DNA of 64,000 nt from an uncultured Fodinibius sp. (GTDB lineage Bacteria > Bacteroidota > Rhodothermia > Balneolales > Balneolaceae). The notes under the pieces are model-generated. The model saw only the letters and a list, made by a program, of their open reading frames with translations. It did no database searches and was not told the origin of the DNA. Below, piece by piece: positions 7,915-14,789 of this stretch (positions within the stretch are counted from its first letter, which is position 1; the number at the start of each line of letters is the position of its first letter). The stretch lies in NCBI GenBank assembly GCA_913057775.1, contig CAJXOG010000002.1, positions 186,001-250,000 of the forward strand. The letters are read 5' to 3'. The position numbers and the translations under genes were made by a program.

Positions 7915-10098
7915 TTATTCAGCTACTTCAAGGTATTCACTTGCAGGGCTGGACCCGTTTTCTTTGGTAAAAAAGAATTCGAACTTTTGATAATCACTTT
8001 CCGGGTTCGGCCAAATCAATGTTCCTCCCAGTTGCCTTACCAGTGTTTCGATTAAGATGTTGTGCAGAGAATTGTTGTTTTTAATCTCATTAGGACAGTT
8101 AACAATTCGATCTCCCTCAATAATCAGATGTACTTGCTTATTATATTCACGCAATTGAATATCAATGGATGACTGTTTGCCTTCATCAGTGAAGTTGAAT
8201 ATTAGTGAGAGGATTTCATTTAACAACAATCCGCTTGGAATAGATTGATTAATACTTAGAGAGAGTTCTTCAGTAGGGATCTTAATCTGCGTATCTTTCG
8301 TATCCCGTTGGTTTTGAATCATCCGGGTATTTATCAATTCTTGAAGAAAACTCGTAAAGGGGATATTGGTTAAGCTGCCGTTTTGATACAACACCTCGTG
8401 GATAGAGGCGATAGTCATGATTCGGTTCTTAATATTCTGCAGTTCCTCTTTCAACTTATCGTCGTCAGCGTCAAAAAGCTGCAGTTCCACAAGACTGGTG
8501 ATGAGGGCCAGATTATTTTTTACCCGGTGGTGCAGTTCCGAAAGAAGAGCTTCTTTTTCACGCAATGTTTCTTTTATTTTTTCCCGGTAGTTGCGCTGTG
8601 TAGAGACATCTACATACATGCCATATATAGCAATAATCTCATCCTCTAATGTAACAGGAATACTCCCGATTAAAACTGGAACTTCTTCTCCATCTTTATT
8701 AATTCGAGTGGTCTCGGTTTGCAGGCTTTCTCCCTTTTGTGTAGCCAGTGAAATAGCCTTGGCTTCGTTCTGCTTCCCTTTTGTAGCCAAGAGCGCATTA
8801 ATATTTTTTCCTGTAGCTTCATCCTTTGAATAACCAAAAATACTTTCAAAGCTCTCGTTAACTTTTTGGATGTTGTTGTTATTATCAACAATGGTTATTC
8901 CTACCGGGGAATTGTCAAAAAGCTGCTGAAGCATGAGTTGGTTTTTCATATTCTCTCGCTCAACTTTTTTACGATCCGTAATGTCAATACCTGCACCTAC
9001 AAGATAAGATTTGCCATCTTCTACAAAGTGCTTGGCAAACAGAAAATAGTCCTTCACTCCACCCTTTTTAGCATGTATACGGGTTTCAACCGATAGTTCG
9101 CCATTCTTAAAACACTCTTCCATTTTTTGGCGAATAGTATCCTTGTGATCATCAGCAATGAAGTCTAAAGCATTTTTTTGGGATAGTTCCTGGCTGGAAT
9201 ATCCCAGCTCTGTCGTCATATGCTCGTTCCATCTTACGATATTACCCTTGCTATCGAGTACTAAAAAGACACCCGGGATACTGTCCAGGGCCGATTCAGT
9301 AAAGTGCTTGTTCTTTATAAGGTTCCCCTCAATCTCTTTCCGTTTGCTGATATCCTTAAAAGTAATAATATTCCGCAGCTTGCCGGATTTATTGCGATAG
9401 ACTTTAGAGGATACCTCGGCAGGAATTTTTCGCCCTTCTTTATGTATCAGCTCCATTTCAAGACGGTAGCTGCCGGTCTCTTTTTGTTGATCCAAAGCGG
9501 TTTGATGGTTGGGATCATAAACATCTAGAATTTCATCACTTTTCCGGGCGATAAGGCTTTCACGATCCCAACCAAGGATTTTGCTGGCTGCCGGATTGGC
9601 ATCCAATATATGGTCATTGGCGTCGGTAATTAGGATGCCGTCGAGGTTCTGCTCAAATTGAATTTGATATCGATTTTGTGTTTCCTCCAGATGGTGCTGG
9701 GCCTGGATGGTTGAGCTCACATCTTCGTGAATCATAATAAATTGCGTGTGCTCATCATTGCAGGGACGAACAGTAACTTTGAACCAGAGGGAATCACTAT
9801 TGGACTGCAGGGGATAGGTAAGCGAAAAGGATTCTTTTTTACCTTTGGTAACCTCTTTTAATCCCAATAAAAGTTTAAGCGCATAATCATCGCCCATTTC
9901 AATAGCGTGCTGCAGGTCATTAAAATAATTTACACCAGTATCCGAACGTTTGATTAAAGCAGGTTCGGCGCTGAATTTTTTCCATGCTTCATTGTAGCCT
10001 ATAATAGTACCTTGGGAATCTATTATTGCCACATGGGCAATTAGATTATTAAGAAAAGTGGTATCTAAATTGATTTTGGGAAACTTGAAATTTGTCAT
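7915..10098 (-). CDS. Multi-PAS HisKA_2-type sensor histidine kinase with degenerate ATPase domain
   Basis: A 727-residue soluble protein without membrane segments. Four PAS domains lie at about 12-125, 140-260, 265-385 and 390-510. A HisKA_2 dimerisation segment follows, with the phospho-acceptor motif LHHRVKNN (H523). The C-terminal HATPase region is eroded: the N-box keeps N627-E628 but lacks the following NA-KH pattern. The G1 box, normally DxGxG, reads EGDRIVNCP (661-669), and the SLG glycine of the G2 region is a histidine (SLHN, 677-680). The family autophosphorylates and signals to response regulators or output proteins; ATP binding here is doubtful. It lies downstream of the pseudo-receiver gene with a 106-base gap holding an ATAGGCTTTT motif. 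Domain assignment is firm; activity is uncertain. Confidence 0.88.
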   Translation of the reverse strand: MTNFKFPKINLDTTFLNNLIAHVAIIDSQGTIIGYNEAWKKFSAEPALIKRSDTGVNYFNDLQHAIEMGDDYALKLLLGLKEVTKGKKESFSLTYPLQSNSDSLWFKVTVRPCNDEHTQFIMIHEDVSSTIQAQHHLEETQNRYQIQFEQNLDGILITDANDHILDANPAASKILGWDRESLIARKSDEILDVYDPNHQTALDQQKETGSYRLEMELIHKEGRKIPAEVSSKVYRNKSGKLRNIITFKDISKRKEIEGNLIKNKHFTESALDSIPGVFLVLDSKGNIVRWNEHMTTELGYSSQELSQKNALDFIADDHKDTIRQKMEECFKNGELSVETRIHAKKGGVKDYFLFAKHFVEDGKSYLVGAGIDITDRKKVERENMKNQLMLQQLFDNSPVGITIVDNNNNIQKVNESFESIFGYSKDEATGKNINALLATKGKQNEAKAISLATQKGESLQTETTRINKDGEEVPVLIGSIPVTLEDEIIAIYGMYVDVSTQRNYREKIKETLREKEALLSELHHRVKNNLALITSLVELQLFDADDDKLKEELQNIKNRIMTIASIHEVLYQNGSLTNIPFTSFLQELINTRMIQNQRDTKDTQIKIPTEELSLSINQSIPSGLLLNEILSLIFNFTDEGKQSSIDIQLREYNKQVHLIIEGDRIVNCPNEIKNNNSLHNILIETLVRQLGGTLIWPNPESDYQKFEFFFTKENGSSPASEYLEVAE

Positions 10099-10157
10099 TT
10101 TCTATTGGGTAGATGATTATGTGCCATTAAAATCATCATTTTGGGAAGATCGAAAAA

Positions 10158-10177
10158 CAGGTGAAAAGCCTATTTTT
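10158..10177 (-). promoter_or_regulatory. ATAGGCTTTT motif, copy 1
   Basis: The minus strand reads AATAGGCTTTTCACCTG just upstream of the HisKA_2 kinase start. Related copies lie upstream of the pseudo-receiver gene, suggesting a shared regulator site. Function is inferred from repetition and position only. Confidence 0.4.
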
Positions 10178-10204
10178 TCAATAACGCAAAAAGCGTATCG
10201 AGCA

Positions 10205-10594
10205 TTAGGTAGATTCTGCTATAATACACTTCGTTCCCGAGGCGACTTTTTGTACGGCTTCAATCAGCTTGTTGTCTGATACATCGTTTTGCATATATCC
10301 TGTAGCTCCTGCCGTAATCATTGGTTTAATTAGAGCTTTGTTGAGATATGAGTGAATTACAAGGAGCGGAGTATCGGGAAATCGTATATGGATTGTAGAA
10401 ACTACTTTTGTAGAAGCTTTCTCAAAATCCTCTAAATTAGCAATTATGAGGTCAAGATTGGATTGTTCCTCGTCAGATTTCTTGATATTAAGCAAATCTG
10501 ATTGGAGCTGAACCGACCACTCTTCTATCGATTGAAGCATCGTTTTTATTGTGGTAGTTATAGAAGACGTTTTGCCAAAGAGTAGTATCTGCAT
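10205..10594 (-). CDS. Stand-alone pseudo-receiver (degenerate response-regulator domain)
   Basis: A 129-residue protein that follows the CheY-like receiver pattern along its whole length but has no output domain. Aligned by eye with the intact regulator encoded next door, every phosphorylation residue is missing. The acidic pair D10-D11 is K8-T9-S10 territory, the phospho-Asp D56 is N53 (LIIAN), the conserved Thr84 is H81, and Lys106 is N103 (GYMQND). The fold signature ITAGATGYM and the terminal helix EAVQKVASGT remain. Such proteins may act as phosphorylation-independent protein-binding modules; here it could partner the adjacent kinases. It is transcribed leftward between an intact two-component pair and a degenerate kinase. 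Two copies of the ATAGGCTTTT motif lie upstream. Confidence 0.8.
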   Translation of the reverse strand: MQILLFGKTSSITTTIKTMLQSIEEWSVQLQSDLLNIKKSDEEQSNLDLIIANLEDFEKASTKVVSTIHIRFPDTPLLVIHSYLNKALIKPMITAGATGYMQNDVSDNKLIEAVQKVASGTKCIIAEST

Positions 10595-10658
10595 GCCGTT
10601 GTTTTATAAGATGATATATTTGAACCTACTATTTTTAACACCGGCTGTATATAGCTTT

Positions 10659-10672
10659 AAAAGCCTATTTTT
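10659..10672 (-). promoter_or_regulatory. ATAGGCTTTT motif, copy 2
   Basis: The minus strand reads AAAATAGGCTTTTAAAG, about 65 bases upstream of the pseudo-receiver start and 25 bases from copy 3 in the same orientation. Confidence 0.4.
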
Positions 10673-10677
10673 GGAGT

Positions 10678-10696
10678 AGGTGAAAAAGCCTATCCC
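10678..10696 (-). promoter_or_regulatory. ATAGGCTTTT motif, copy 3
   Basis: The minus strand reads GGGATAGGCTTTTTCACCT, sharing the CACCT tail with copy 1. It lies in the 163-base gap between the NarL-type regulator and the pseudo-receiver gene. Confidence 0.4.
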
Positions 10697-10757
10697 ACAA
10701 AGATTAGCATCTATATGAGAAAGAATAAAAAAAATCGGGAGTGCGAGATACCGGTAT

Positions 10758-11411
10758 TTATTCGATATCTACCAGGTCGTGTTTGATAGCATAAGTAACG
10801 AGTCCGGCCGTATTTTTAGCACCTGTTTTTTGCAGCAGATTTCGACGGTGGGCATCCACGGTGCGGGTGCTTATATATAACTCCTCTGCAATCTCTTGAT
10901 TGGTGTACTGTTTTACAATGAGTTCCAGCACCTCTTTTTCGCGGTCGGTGATATTTCCGGGATCGGAGTTGTCTTTTTCAGCAGTGCCTTTTACAAGGTC
11001 CATCATCACACTCTGGGTGGCATCACTACTAAAATAGTGTTTGCCTTCTAAAATTGTAGTGATGGCGTCAACAAGCTCAATTTTATCGGAGCTCTTAAGG
11101 ATATAGCCCGAGGCACCGGCTTCAATCATCTGTCGAATATGCTGATCTTCATCCATCATGGTTAGTGCCAGTATTTTGATCTCGGGAAATGATTCTTTAA
11201 TCTTTTCGGTGGCCTCAATGCCATTCATTTCAGGCATACTTATATCCATGATAATCAAGTCGATATCGTGCTCTTTGCAAGCCTTAAGCGCCTCTTTACC
11301 GTTTTCTGCTTCTGCTGCGATCCCAAAGCCTACTTCGTCTTCCAGTAACATCCTAATCCCGTCGCGGACAATATCATGATCGTCCACTAATAAAATATCG
11401 ATATTAGCCAT
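10758..11411 (-). CDS. NarL/FixJ-family response regulator
   Basis: A 217-residue two-domain regulator. The receiver domain (1-125) has the acidic pair D10-D11, phosphorylation site D56 (LIIMDISMP), T84 and K106, all intact. The C-terminal LuxR-type helix-turn-helix (about 150-215) shows the pattern TDREKEVLELI and TRTVDAHRRNLLQK. It should bind DNA as a phosphorylated dimer. Its start codon overlaps the last eight bases of the upstream kinase gene, so the two are translationally coupled and form a cognate pair. It is an obvious candidate for binding the repeated motif found upstream of the next two genes. Confidence 0.95.
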   Translation of the reverse strand: MANIDILLVDDHDIVRDGIRMLLEDEVGFGIAAEAENGKEALKACKEHDIDLIIMDISMPEMNGIEATEKIKESFPEIKILALTMMDEDQHIRQMIEAGASGYILKSSDKIELVDAITTILEGKHYFSSDATQSVMMDLVKGTAEKDNSDPGNITDREKEVLELIVKQYTNQEIAEELYISTRTVDAHRRNLLQKTGAKNTAGLVTYAIKHDLVDIE

Positions 11412-14223
11412 GATCCGTATTGTTTGATTTCAGGTTGCTGACTTCGGGGATGGTGATTGTAGTTTGCATACCTTCACCGGGTTCTGATTCAATATCGAGT
11501 GATCCCTTTAGGCTGCCTACTCTTGTCTTTATGCTCCGCAATCCCAATCCGGTTTCTTCATCCTGCTCATCCAGCTGTGCTCCAATCCCGTTGTCTTTTA
11601 CTTTTATAGTAAGTGTATCATTGCCAAGGTGCAATGCAATATCTATTTTTGTGCATTCTGCGTGGCGTATCGCATTGGTAATTATTTCCTGAAAGATGCG
11701 ATAAATATTTATCTCAGCCTGATCAGTGAGCTTTAGTTCATCGCAATTATGGCTAAACTGAAAATTAATTTCGGTACTTCTGTTAAATTCGTTGATGAGA
11801 TTATTGAGGGCAGCAATAACTCCATAGTCCGAAATAGCTTTGGGCATTAGGTTGTGTGCAATATTCCGGGTTTCGGAAAGAGCACTTTTAAGAAGCGATA
11901 TCCCCGTTTCAAACTGGTTTTGTCTTTTTTCGCTTAATTTTTCAATATCTGTTTTGGCCGATTGCAGGTTCATACTGGCAGCTACAAGGTATTGCCCAAG
12001 ACCATCGTGCAGTTCGTGAGCAATACGTTTTCGTTCCCGATCTTCGCCCTCAATAACCGACTGAATAATTCTTTCCTGTACTCGTTTTTGTTTGGTTATA
12101 TCGTTAATTAAGACCAGTCGATAGGTTTTGTCTTGTTTGTATTTAACATCAGAGGACGAAAGTTCCACATCTATCTTGGTGCCGTCTTTTTTTAGATGTA
12201 TCCATTCCTCTGAATAGGAGGAGGTCCCCTTATTTTGTTTTACATTTTCTTTTAATGCTTCGGCGTCTTCATCGGGACGGATATCAAGCAATGTCATCTC
12301 CATGAATTCCTCCTCGGAATAGCCGTAATGATTAATAGCCGCTTGATTTACCTCCACAAACTTCAGCGTATCGGGGTCATAAATCCACATGGGTTCGGGA
12401 TTATTCTCAAAGAGATGCCGATATTTTTCTTCTGATTCGCGGAGTTGTTTTTCAAGCCTTTTTTGCTCAGTAACATCAACTACGGTAGAGATCATTAAAT
12501 TCTGATCATAAAGAGGAATGTTTTTAGCATTTACAATTCGCTCTTTTCCTTCATGGGTAGTAACTCGTATGCCCTTCCATTGCATGCGGTCTGGGTCTCC
12601 AGAGGCAATATCGGCATTGATCATATCAAATATTTTTCTTCGATATTCATCATCAGGATAAACTTTCTTAAAGAAGGTTTCGAAGTCATTCAATGTTTCT
12701 CGGGGCCAGCCGTAAATTTCCGTGAACTTGTTGTTGATTAATGTCACTTTTCCATCCTCAATCGTATTGACAGCTACACCAATGGGCAAATTCTGAATTG
12801 TTTTTTCAATAAAATCTTTTCGCTGTTCAAGCTCTTTTTCCGACTTTTTACGCTCGGTAATATCTTGTGCAATACCTAATAATTTAGTGACTTCTTGCTC
12901 ATCATTTGTGATGGGTATTCCAATTGCCCGGATGTACTTTTTATTCCCCTTTTCCGTTTCAAGTTCCATATCAGTGTCATATGACTCTTGGTTCTCAATG
13001 GCCTGCCTTACTATTTGCCTAGTATGGTCTGAGGATGATCCGTGATAGTGTTCCATGAGATATTCGAATGAGGGGGGCCCTAATTCCGGATCACGTTCAT
13101 AGATTTCATACATTACAGGAGACCAAAAAATCTCTTCTTTTTTCGCATCAAATTCCCAGTCCCCGATTTGTCCAATTTCCTGCGATCGTAATAGGCGTTC
13201 TTGCTGTCTTTTGAGCTTTTGTTCGTATTCTTTTTGATCCGTGATATCACGTACTACGCTTACGACCTTATCAATTTCTCCCTCCTTATCACGGACCAGC
13301 GTCACGGTATGATCGGAATGAAAAATGGTTCCGTCTTTCTTCTGCATCTGAAATTCAGTCTGGAATACTCCGTTTTCGGCCAAGGCATCTCTGCCTAACT
13401 TGTCAAATTCCTCAAATTTTTCTTGGCTGACATGGAGCATGCGGGTTGAGCTACCTTCAAGCTCTTCTTTACTGTAGCCAAATAGGTCTTTGGTCTTTTT
13501 ATTGCAGTCCACTATGGTACGGCTCTCGTAATCGAGAATGATCAGGCTTGATTCCAGACTCTCGAAAATCTTATTTAATAACTCTTGGGATTCTCGAATT
13601 TTTGCCTGAGAGGCCTTGATGTCAGTCATGTCGATCCCGATGCCCACAGAAGTATTGTCGGTAAGTCGCACATTCGTCCAAGAGATAGGAACTTTACTGC
13701 CGGATTTTGTAGTTGTGTCAATTTCCTTCCACCCCACACCCGGATTATTCATAAATTTTACGACCTTTTCTCGGGTCTCTAAATCCGGATAAGAGGCTTC
13801 AAGAAGATCGATATTCTCTTCTTCCACTTGATCGTTAGTCCAACCGGTTACTTTTTCAAATTCTCTGTTGACTTCGAACTCTTCCAGGTCAGGGTCATAA
13901 ATCGTAATAAGGATAGGGATACGTTCAAATAAAACGTCTTTCAGTTCCTTTTCGGACTTTACTTCTTCCAGTAAGTTTCCAACTTTCAGCTCCTTTTTTT
14001 GAAGCTGCTGGTCGTGTTTTTTAATCAGCCAATATAAGCCGGCGCCTGTAAGTAAAACATAGAACCAGCCCTTGTAGGTTTGTAAAATGGATAGGGCACG
14101 GGAGTCTGTAACCAACGATTCAAGCAGTCGGTCGGTAAAGGCGATCCAGATCCCGGCAACGATAAGGTAAATAACCGTAATCTTGATGGGGGAAAGTGTA
14201 ATATTTTGGTCATTGTTTGCCAT
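11404..14223 (-). CDS. Membrane-anchored multi-PAS NarX-type (HisKA_3) sensor histidine kinase
   Basis: A 939-residue kinase. Two hydrophobic segments near the N-terminus (about 12-32 and 52-66) anchor it in the inner membrane with almost no periplasmic domain. Five PAS domains follow at about 92-205, 213-335, 338-460, 470-595 and 600-720. The HisKA_3 segment carries the phospho-acceptor H739 in AHELHDGLGQY. The HATPase_c domain is intact, with the G1 motif DNGIG starting at D877 and the G2 motif ETGLGLRSI. It pairs with the overlapping NarL-type regulator. The many PAS domains suggest sensing of redox state, small ligands or light inside the cell; the ligand cannot be read from sequence. Confidence 0.94.
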   Translation of the reverse strand: MANNDQNITLSPIKITVIYLIVAGIWIAFTDRLLESLVTDSRALSILQTYKGWFYVLLTGAGLYWLIKKHDQQLQKKELKVGNLLEEVKSEKELKDVLFERIPILITIYDPDLEEFEVNREFEKVTGWTNDQVEEENIDLLEASYPDLETREKVVKFMNNPGVGWKEIDTTTKSGSKVPISWTNVRLTDNTSVGIGIDMTDIKASQAKIRESQELLNKIFESLESSLIILDYESRTIVDCNKKTKDLFGYSKEELEGSSTRMLHVSQEKFEEFDKLGRDALAENGVFQTEFQMQKKDGTIFHSDHTVTLVRDKEGEIDKVVSVVRDITDQKEYEQKLKRQQERLLRSQEIGQIGDWEFDAKKEEIFWSPVMYEIYERDPELGPPSFEYLMEHYHGSSSDHTRQIVRQAIENQESYDTDMELETEKGNKKYIRAIGIPITNDEQEVTKLLGIAQDITERKKSEKELEQRKDFIEKTIQNLPIGVAVNTIEDGKVTLINNKFTEIYGWPRETLNDFETFFKKVYPDDEYRRKIFDMINADIASGDPDRMQWKGIRVTTHEGKERIVNAKNIPLYDQNLMISTVVDVTEQKRLEKQLRESEEKYRHLFENNPEPMWIYDPDTLKFVEVNQAAINHYGYSEEEFMEMTLLDIRPDEDAEALKENVKQNKGTSSYSEEWIHLKKDGTKIDVELSSSDVKYKQDKTYRLVLINDITKQKRVQERIIQSVIEGEDRERKRIAHELHDGLGQYLVAASMNLQSAKTDIEKLSEKRQNQFETGISLLKSALSETRNIAHNLMPKAISDYGVIAALNNLINEFNRSTEINFQFSHNCDELKLTDQAEINIYRIFQEIITNAIRHAECTKIDIALHLGNDTLTIKVKDNGIGAQLDEQDEETGLGLRSIKTRVGSLKGSLDIESEPGEGMQTTITIPEVSNLKSNNTDHG

Positions 14224-14585: not shown

Positions 14586-14789
14586 TTACTTCTGTTTTCG
14601 TGTTGATAGGCCAAATGGCATATACAATGGACAGGTACTTATTAGGCTGGTACCCAAAAAGATAATTGCAAATACCCCGAGTATTATAGCCGTTGTCCCG
14701 GAAATGACGTTCATGAAATACAGAACACCTACCAATATAGCAAGCAGCGTTCGTACTGTGCGATCAATTGTTCCCATGTTCTTTTTCAT
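14586..14789 (-). CDS. Small DUF2892 inner-membrane protein
   Basis: A 67-residue protein when started at the ATG at 14787-14789, which has AAAGG 8-12 bases upstream. A GTG nine bases further out is less likely. Two hydrophobic segments are separated by a short turn, followed by the family motif with a cysteine (STCPLY). DUF2892 domains occur alone or fused to rhodanese, as in E. coli YgaP, where they anchor sulfur-transfer enzymes. It is downstream of, and probably co-transcribed with, the GntR regulator (37-base gap). A second DUF2892 gene lies at the far end of the divergent efflux operon, which ties the two transcripts together functionally. Confidence 0.85.
   Translation of the reverse strand: MKKNMGTIDRTVRTLLAILVGVLYFMNVISGTTAIILGVFAIIFLGTSLISTCPLYMPFGLSTRKQK

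Follow-up and report, generated by a model that had tools for sequence, protein, structure and literature searches.

The locus described here carries an intact two-component system, HK1-RR, followed in fixed order by a pseudo-receiver, pREC, and by a PAS-repeat protein, HK2, which has retained its phosphoacceptor histidine and lost its ATP-binding residues. We propose that pREC acts by protein contact and that HK2 serves as a histidine phosphotransferase or phosphatase, with RR setting the dose of pREC as a feedback; we hold this combined reading to stand about evenly between right and wrong. The locus lies in the window, by which we mean the whole 64,000-nucleotide stretch of DNA from an uncultured Fodinibius sp. 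that was analysed, and its features are as follows.

11404-14223, minus strand: HK1, an intact PAS-repeat sensor kinase of 939 aa with HisKA_3 and HATPase_c domains (open reading frame, Pfam and motifs)
10758-11411, minus strand: RR, an intact NarL/FixJ-type response regulator of 217 aa with a receiver and a GerE helix-turn-helix domain (open reading frame and Pfam)
10677-10692, no strand: 16-bp inverted repeat TAGGCTTTTTCACCTA (TAGG-N8-CCTA), a candidate operator, 82 bp before the pREC start
10205-10594, minus strand: pREC, a stand-alone pseudo-receiver of 129 aa with a predicted NarL-type receiver fold
10158-10172, no strand: a related 15-mer, TAGGCTTTTCACCTG, in the gap between pREC and HK2, about 60 bp before HK2
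7915-10098, minus strand: HK2, a PAS-repeat protein of 727 aa with a HisKA_2 DHp domain and a degenerate Bergerat-fold domain

Conservation and extension of the gene block

The four genes were found in the order HK1-RR-pREC-HK2 in 8 of the 12 genomes of the genus (Fodinibius/Aliifodinibius), and the same order was kept in four further Balneolaceae genera and in several named Balneolaceae MAGs. In three members of the genus pREC was not found, and the RR-like loci examined there were without the module. In genome G006 (locus L046, 8501-9092) pREC is reduced to a frameshifted remnant while HK1, RR and HK2 are still open. Four loci (L054, L097, L098 and L099) hold pREC beside HK1-RR without HK2, and locus L095 holds HK2 without pREC; at L054, in genome G046, HK2 is absent from an extended cluster in which pREC-REC2-HK3 is kept. 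As these loci and that of G006 demonstrate, the parts of the module are separable. Since pREC is kept beside HK1-RR in loci that have no HK2, its link is to HK1-RR.

The extended cluster is a feature of other genera. There the gene after HK2 encodes either REC2, an intact CheY-like receiver that is itself succeeded by the GAF-HisKA-HATPase kinase HK3, or HK3 directly. REC2 keeps the E-D-D, D, T-G and K residues and is TG-type, with Gly after Thr in the stretch 'YITGNSD', which recalls, as a resemblance only, the PFxFATG(G/Y) receivers that serve PhyT and PhyK (PMC5964349). Both REC2 and HK3 are absent from the cluster in the window's genus, and at least four REC2-like receivers are encoded elsewhere in the window's genome.

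Three side observations were made around these genes. A GAF domain with 40% identity to the HK3 GAF domain of other genera was found in the window's genome (L194, 1584-3107, contig C14), where it stands upstream of, or is fused to, a HisKA_2 kinase. The same genome holds a paralogous cluster (L057, 3083-9380, contig C6) made of an RR, a pREC-like protein of 145 aa in which Asp is kept and Thr is replaced by His, a KaiC-like ATPase and a HisKA_2 kinase whose G1 box is intact. Lastly, a small open reading frame of about 67 aa (MKKNMGTIDRTVRTLLAILVGVLYF...; 14586-14789, minus strand) lies between a GntR regulator and HK1 and is conserved in G003 and G005; we take it to resemble a DUF2892-type small membrane protein.

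HK1 and RR form an intact pair

The earlier note, made from the letters of the DNA, had described an intact kinase and regulator overlapping by eight bases, and our analysis agreed on each point. The overlap spans 11404-11411 in the open reading frame coordinates. HK1, in which Pfam recognised PAS repeats, HisKA_3 and HATPase_c, carries the phosphoacceptor motif ELHDGLGQ (H739, of HDxxxQ type), the N box QEIITNAIRHA, the G1 box DNGIG and the G2 box GLGL. RR matched Response_reg and GerE, as expected of a NarL/FixJ response regulator, and its D10/D11, D56, T84 and K106 were invariant among 20 orthologues. Within the genus its dN/dS ratio was 0.02-0.05, with dS partly near saturation. The description of HK1 as NarX-like applies only loosely: its scores against the NarX, NarQ and MctS models were far under their cut-offs (63 bits against 578 for the NCBIfam NarX model), RR reached 134 bits against the NCBIfam NarL cut-off of 250, and the pair was not recognised as a NarX/NarL nitrate system.

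pREC belongs to a distinct pseudo-receiver family

Residues N53, H81 and N103 of pREC align to D57, T87 and K109 of CheY, just as the earlier note had read them, and to these losses we add that of the acidic pair, with G7/K8 where CheY has D12/D13. Alignment of orthologues, which that note had recommended, gave a general loss for the acidic pair, Thr and Lys (0/19 aligned pRECs retain them) but not for the phospho-acceptor: seven pRECs have Asn at this position and one has His, all eight from the window's genus, and the 11 from other genera have Asp, so that Asp53 was lost only in the window's genus. The Thr position is usually taken by His, with Tyr at +2, making H81 and Y83 new conserved residues; together with Y100, G96 and P91 they are the most conserved positions of the family and fall within beta4, alpha4 and beta5.

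No Pfam match to pREC was obtained at an E-value of 1e-3, the receiver family PF00072 included, and a homologue at L050 scored 15 bits against the PF00072 cut-off of 30.2. The predicted structure is nevertheless a complete receiver fold (pLDDT 87), whose best structural matches are NarL/LuxR-family receivers such as DesR, VraR, spr1814 and 2qsj, with Z up to 17.4. A (beta-alpha)5 fold lacking the DD/D/T/K residues is what defines a pseudo-receiver (PsR) in PMC12632262, and pREC has these properties. The window's pREC, with Asn53, would also qualify as an aspartate-less receiver (ALR); for the family taken together PsR is the fitting term and ALR is not, because Asp stands in 11 of the 19 relatives. 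Given the missing residues, pREC is very probably phosphorylation-independent.

A profile built from the 19 pRECs was run against 394 genomes of the phylum. Family members scored about 80-160 bits and ordinary receivers at most 77 bits, and within this sample the members were confined to the window's family, Balneolaceae; relatives were also found in loci of MAGs that bear the labels Bacteroidales, Bacteroidetes and Saprospiraceae. The dN/dS ratio of pREC within the genus was 0.2-0.3 (dS partly near saturation), which indicates a protein that is constrained yet evolves faster than its neighbours. A recent duplication of the adjoining RR was considered as its origin and rejected: the receivers of pREC and of RR fall into clades of their own, and the similarity of pREC to its cognate RR does not exceed that to other RRs, so any such duplication would be old. 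The same comparison of cognate with other RRs gave no sign of a specific RR-mimic surface on pREC.

HK2 retains its histidine and has lost its ATP site

In HK2, Pfam recognised PAS repeats and HisKA_2 (PF07568, 77 bits against a cut-off of 22.3), and the same scan gave no HATPase match. The H box HHRVKNN is present at residues 523-529. The earlier note had called HK2 a HisKA_2 protein devoid of a G1 box and of the G2 glycine, and this was borne out: IIEGDRIV occupies the place of DxGxG, and SLHN is read where the intact HisKA_2 kinases of the genome read S(L/I)G. Of the N box just 'NE' is left, its second half being gone in all module orthologues and the Asn-Glu mostly kept. Across the module HK2s the H box was found in 23/23 and DxGxG in 0/23, and the G2 box was gone from all of them too. 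DxGxG and an N box are present in nine out of nine further HisKA_2 proteins from this genome, and the loss of G1 is therefore specific to HK2.

The degenerate domain is far from drifting. Its dN/dS ratio of 0.05-0.07 among the three closest species (dS partly near saturation) equals that of the DHp domain, and the pseudo-ATPase domain is thus under strong purifying selection. In an AlphaFold model of the HK2 core, a Bergerat fold stands behind the HisKA_2 hairpin, its CA part giving Z of about 14-15; the best match was EL346, an HWE/HisKA_2-type kinase; Brucella LOV-HK was one of the top full-length matches, and hits to ChpT and DivL were obtained as well. Against the NCBIfam PhyK model (NF051872) HK2 scored 76 bits, where the cut-off is 750.

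Set against what makes a HisKA_2 histidine kinase, HK2 has the DHp domain with its phosphoacceptor His and lacks the ATP-binding CA domain with N, G1 and G2 boxes. The structural hallmark of phosphotransferases of the PhyT, ChpT and Spo0B kind, a DHp His joined to an ATPase-like domain without ATP residues, is present. Because an invariant H box is coupled to a lost ATP site as in those proteins, we read HK2 as probably a sensory histidine phosphotransferase/phosphatase, a prediction by analogy with PhyT, ChpT and Spo0B. Counts over the window's genome as a whole, with about 17 matches of HisKA_2 type and at least four single-domain receivers of the TG-motif kind, suggest a broad HisKA_2/receiver network.

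An inverted repeat precedes pREC

The gap between RR and pREC, 163 bp long in the window, holds a 16-bp inverted repeat, TAGG-N8-CCTA, typically TAGGTGaaaaCACCTA. It was exact in 14 of 29 loci and present with at most one mismatch in 23, mostly 80-87 bp before the pREC start. The test was framed with ten of the 29 loci already known; of the 19 left, 7 carried the exact repeat and 13 had it within one mismatch. Shuffled gaps yielded it at 0.14% (exact) and 4.1% (at most one mismatch), the other sequence of these loci held 2 copies in 433 kb, and none was found, exact or with one mismatch, in 36 NarL-regulator loci without pREC, where the search reached 180 bp past the regulator gene. Several genera have a second copy, located after pREC and before HK2.

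The repeat is likely to be an operator, and we treat it as a candidate. Sites for NarL-type dimers have a 7-2-7 arrangement. Since the length and dyad of the repeat fit such a dimer, RR suggests itself as the natural candidate binder. The window's genome has three copies of a strict form of the pattern: one at this locus, one at C3:80983 and one at C6:64596, about 220 bp upstream of the RR of the paralogous RR-receiver-KaiC-HisKA_2 cluster. No larger regulon emerged from a strict motif search of the genomes of the genus, which gave 1-5 copies per genome and a similar count for the control pattern. An RNA hairpin or terminator was rejected as an explanation of the repeat, as its inner positions pair inconsistently and no T run follows, and a scan for sigma-70 promoters, which is uninformative for this phylum, gave fewer matches than shuffles.

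Proposed working of the block and alternatives

In the scheme that we propose, HK1, whose residues are intact, phosphorylates RR and, from its HDxxxQ motif, probably dephosphorylates it as well. RR would act on the repeat and thereby determine how much pREC is made and, in many species, how much HK2. The feedback, of whichever sign, would be carried by pREC dose and not by pREC phosphorylation. Blind to phosphorylation, pREC would act by protein contact, most likely by docking on HK1 or pairing with RR. HK2 would sense a PAS signal of its own and take, give or strip phosphoryl groups on receivers, making none itself. Its likeliest partners would be TG-type single-domain receivers, which are encoded beside HK2 in other genera and would be reached in trans in this genus, and possibly RR. 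Transfer from HK2 to RR has against it that NarL-type regulators normally pair with HisKA_3 kinases. Against the model as a whole count the lack of a partner receiver beside HK2 in this genus, the separability of the module parts, the faster evolution of pREC and the lack of any sign of an RR-mimic surface on it.

The earlier note had favoured a phosphorylation-independent scaffold or decoy branch, in which pREC might for example block HK1 and HK2 hold the complex. For pREC this idea stands, as the usual chemistry cannot phosphorylate it. HK2, without G1 and G2, could be placed in such a branch as well, but its H box has stayed invariant (23/23) despite the lost ATP residues and a pure scaffold needs no histidine; we find the idea rather doubtful as an account of both proteins. 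We give the same limited weight to a constitutively active pREC whose RR-set amount is itself the output, with a target outside HK1-RR. A scheme of this sort has been proposed in a review for CmrRST (PMC12632262), and the conserved repeat upstream of pREC would suit it; against it, pREC has no output domain and adjoins HK1-RR even where HK2 is absent.

It is improbable that HK2 is still a kinase, its diverged site binding ATP even though no classical G1 box is left. Retention of the Bergerat fold in the model, of most N-box Asn-Glu pairs and of strong purifying selection on the domain would agree with such an activity, but all 23 HK2s have lost the Asp-x-Gly-x-Gly of G1, and every one is missing the latter half of the N box, when nine paralogues in the same genome keep both boxes. 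More improbable by some way is a pREC that is poorly but truly phosphorylated, as a Spo0F-like intermediate on the way to HK2. Substitutions of DD, T or K need not fully abolish phosphorylation (PMC12632262) and Asp is kept in the other genera (11/19); still, the acidic pair, Thr and Lys are gone from all pRECs, Asp has given way to Asn or His in this genus, where HK2 is nonetheless kept, and in other genera a separate intact receiver, REC2, is available for the role, so this reading is disfavoured. Recent decay of a former four-gene relay, the event in one strain that the earlier note had named as refuting its reading, is scarcely credible: the broken pREC gene of G006 and the failure to find pREC in three genus members would fit it, but orthologues across genera have both non-canonical proteins full length, in the same order, with the same losses and under purifying selection, and losses common to several genera must be old.

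Comparison with known systems

Pseudo-receivers and pseudo-kinases are each already known kinds of protein. A search for literature on two-component systems of Balneolaceae found nothing, and the combination of a pseudo-receiver and a pseudo-kinase fixed with an intact HisKA_3/NarL pair and a candidate operator was not encountered in the literature searched. Going beyond the contact-and-phosphotransfer scheme above, we can suggest, as a possibility that we rate clearly below that scheme, that pREC represents an undescribed, non-orphan pseudo-receiver family outside PF00072, that it is induced by RR and serves, through its controlled dose, as the feedback arm of the HisKA_3/NarL system, and that a HisKA_2 pseudo-kinase phosphotransferase links this system to TG-type single-domain receivers; in that case Balneolaceae would have their own version of the MrrA-PhyK network, one that incorporates a pseudo-receiver.

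The closest relatives in design of HK2 are PhyT, PhyP and PhyK of the alphaproteobacterial general stress response, which share with it an HWE/HisKA_2-type DHp domain with a phosphorylatable His (PMC5898713, PMC5964349). Phosphate from a single-domain receiver reaches PhyR by way of PhyT and PhyP, whose ATPase domain is degenerate, and of PhyK, which lacks autokinase activity; phosphotransfer by PhyK persists even with G1 or G2 mutated (PMC5898713, PMC5964349). The ATPase domain, degenerate in PhyT and dispensable in PhyK, is degenerate in HK2 too, and just as PhyT and PhyK are linked to the TG-motif single-domain receivers SdrG and MrrA, HK2 is linked to TG-type receivers in other genera. Unlike them, HK2 carries PAS domains and its gene belongs to a HisKA_3/NarL cluster that includes a pseudo-receiver, and no PhyR, NepR or EcfG is found here. 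With ChpT and Spo0B, which are histidine phosphotransferases derived from kinases, HK2 shares a DHp domain joined to an ATPase-like domain without ATP residues; it differs in its HisKA_2 DHp domain, its PAS sensors and in that its phosphotransfer is predicted. HK2 is thereby a HisKA_2 phosphotransferase candidate outside the alphaproteobacteria.

The block as a whole resembles CmrRST of Clostridioides difficile (PMC12632262), in which a kinase, an ordinary regulator and a pseudo-receiver protein are likewise encoded together. CmrRST is autoregulated (PMC12632262), a likeness that we count for this block, where control by RR is a candidate. The pseudo-receiver protein there, CmrT, belongs to the OmpR family of regulators and has a DNA-binding domain, whereas pREC consists of a NarL-type receiver and nothing more, and is accompanied by a pseudo-kinase. 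ShkA REC1, CikA PsR and FrzS are, like pREC, receiver folds without phosphorylation residues, and act by contact or ligand; pREC differs from them in not being recognised by PF00072. How bacterial pseudo-receivers switch was called a mystery in a 2025 review, in which nearly all characterised ones are orphans (PMC12632262). Most of those characterised are orphans or domains of larger proteins, whereas pREC is a separate gene of a conserved two-component cluster, in fixed order with its probable kinase and regulator. This fixed order, the candidate operator and the natural losses of parts in G006, L095 and L054 together make the partner and mode of action of pREC directly testable.
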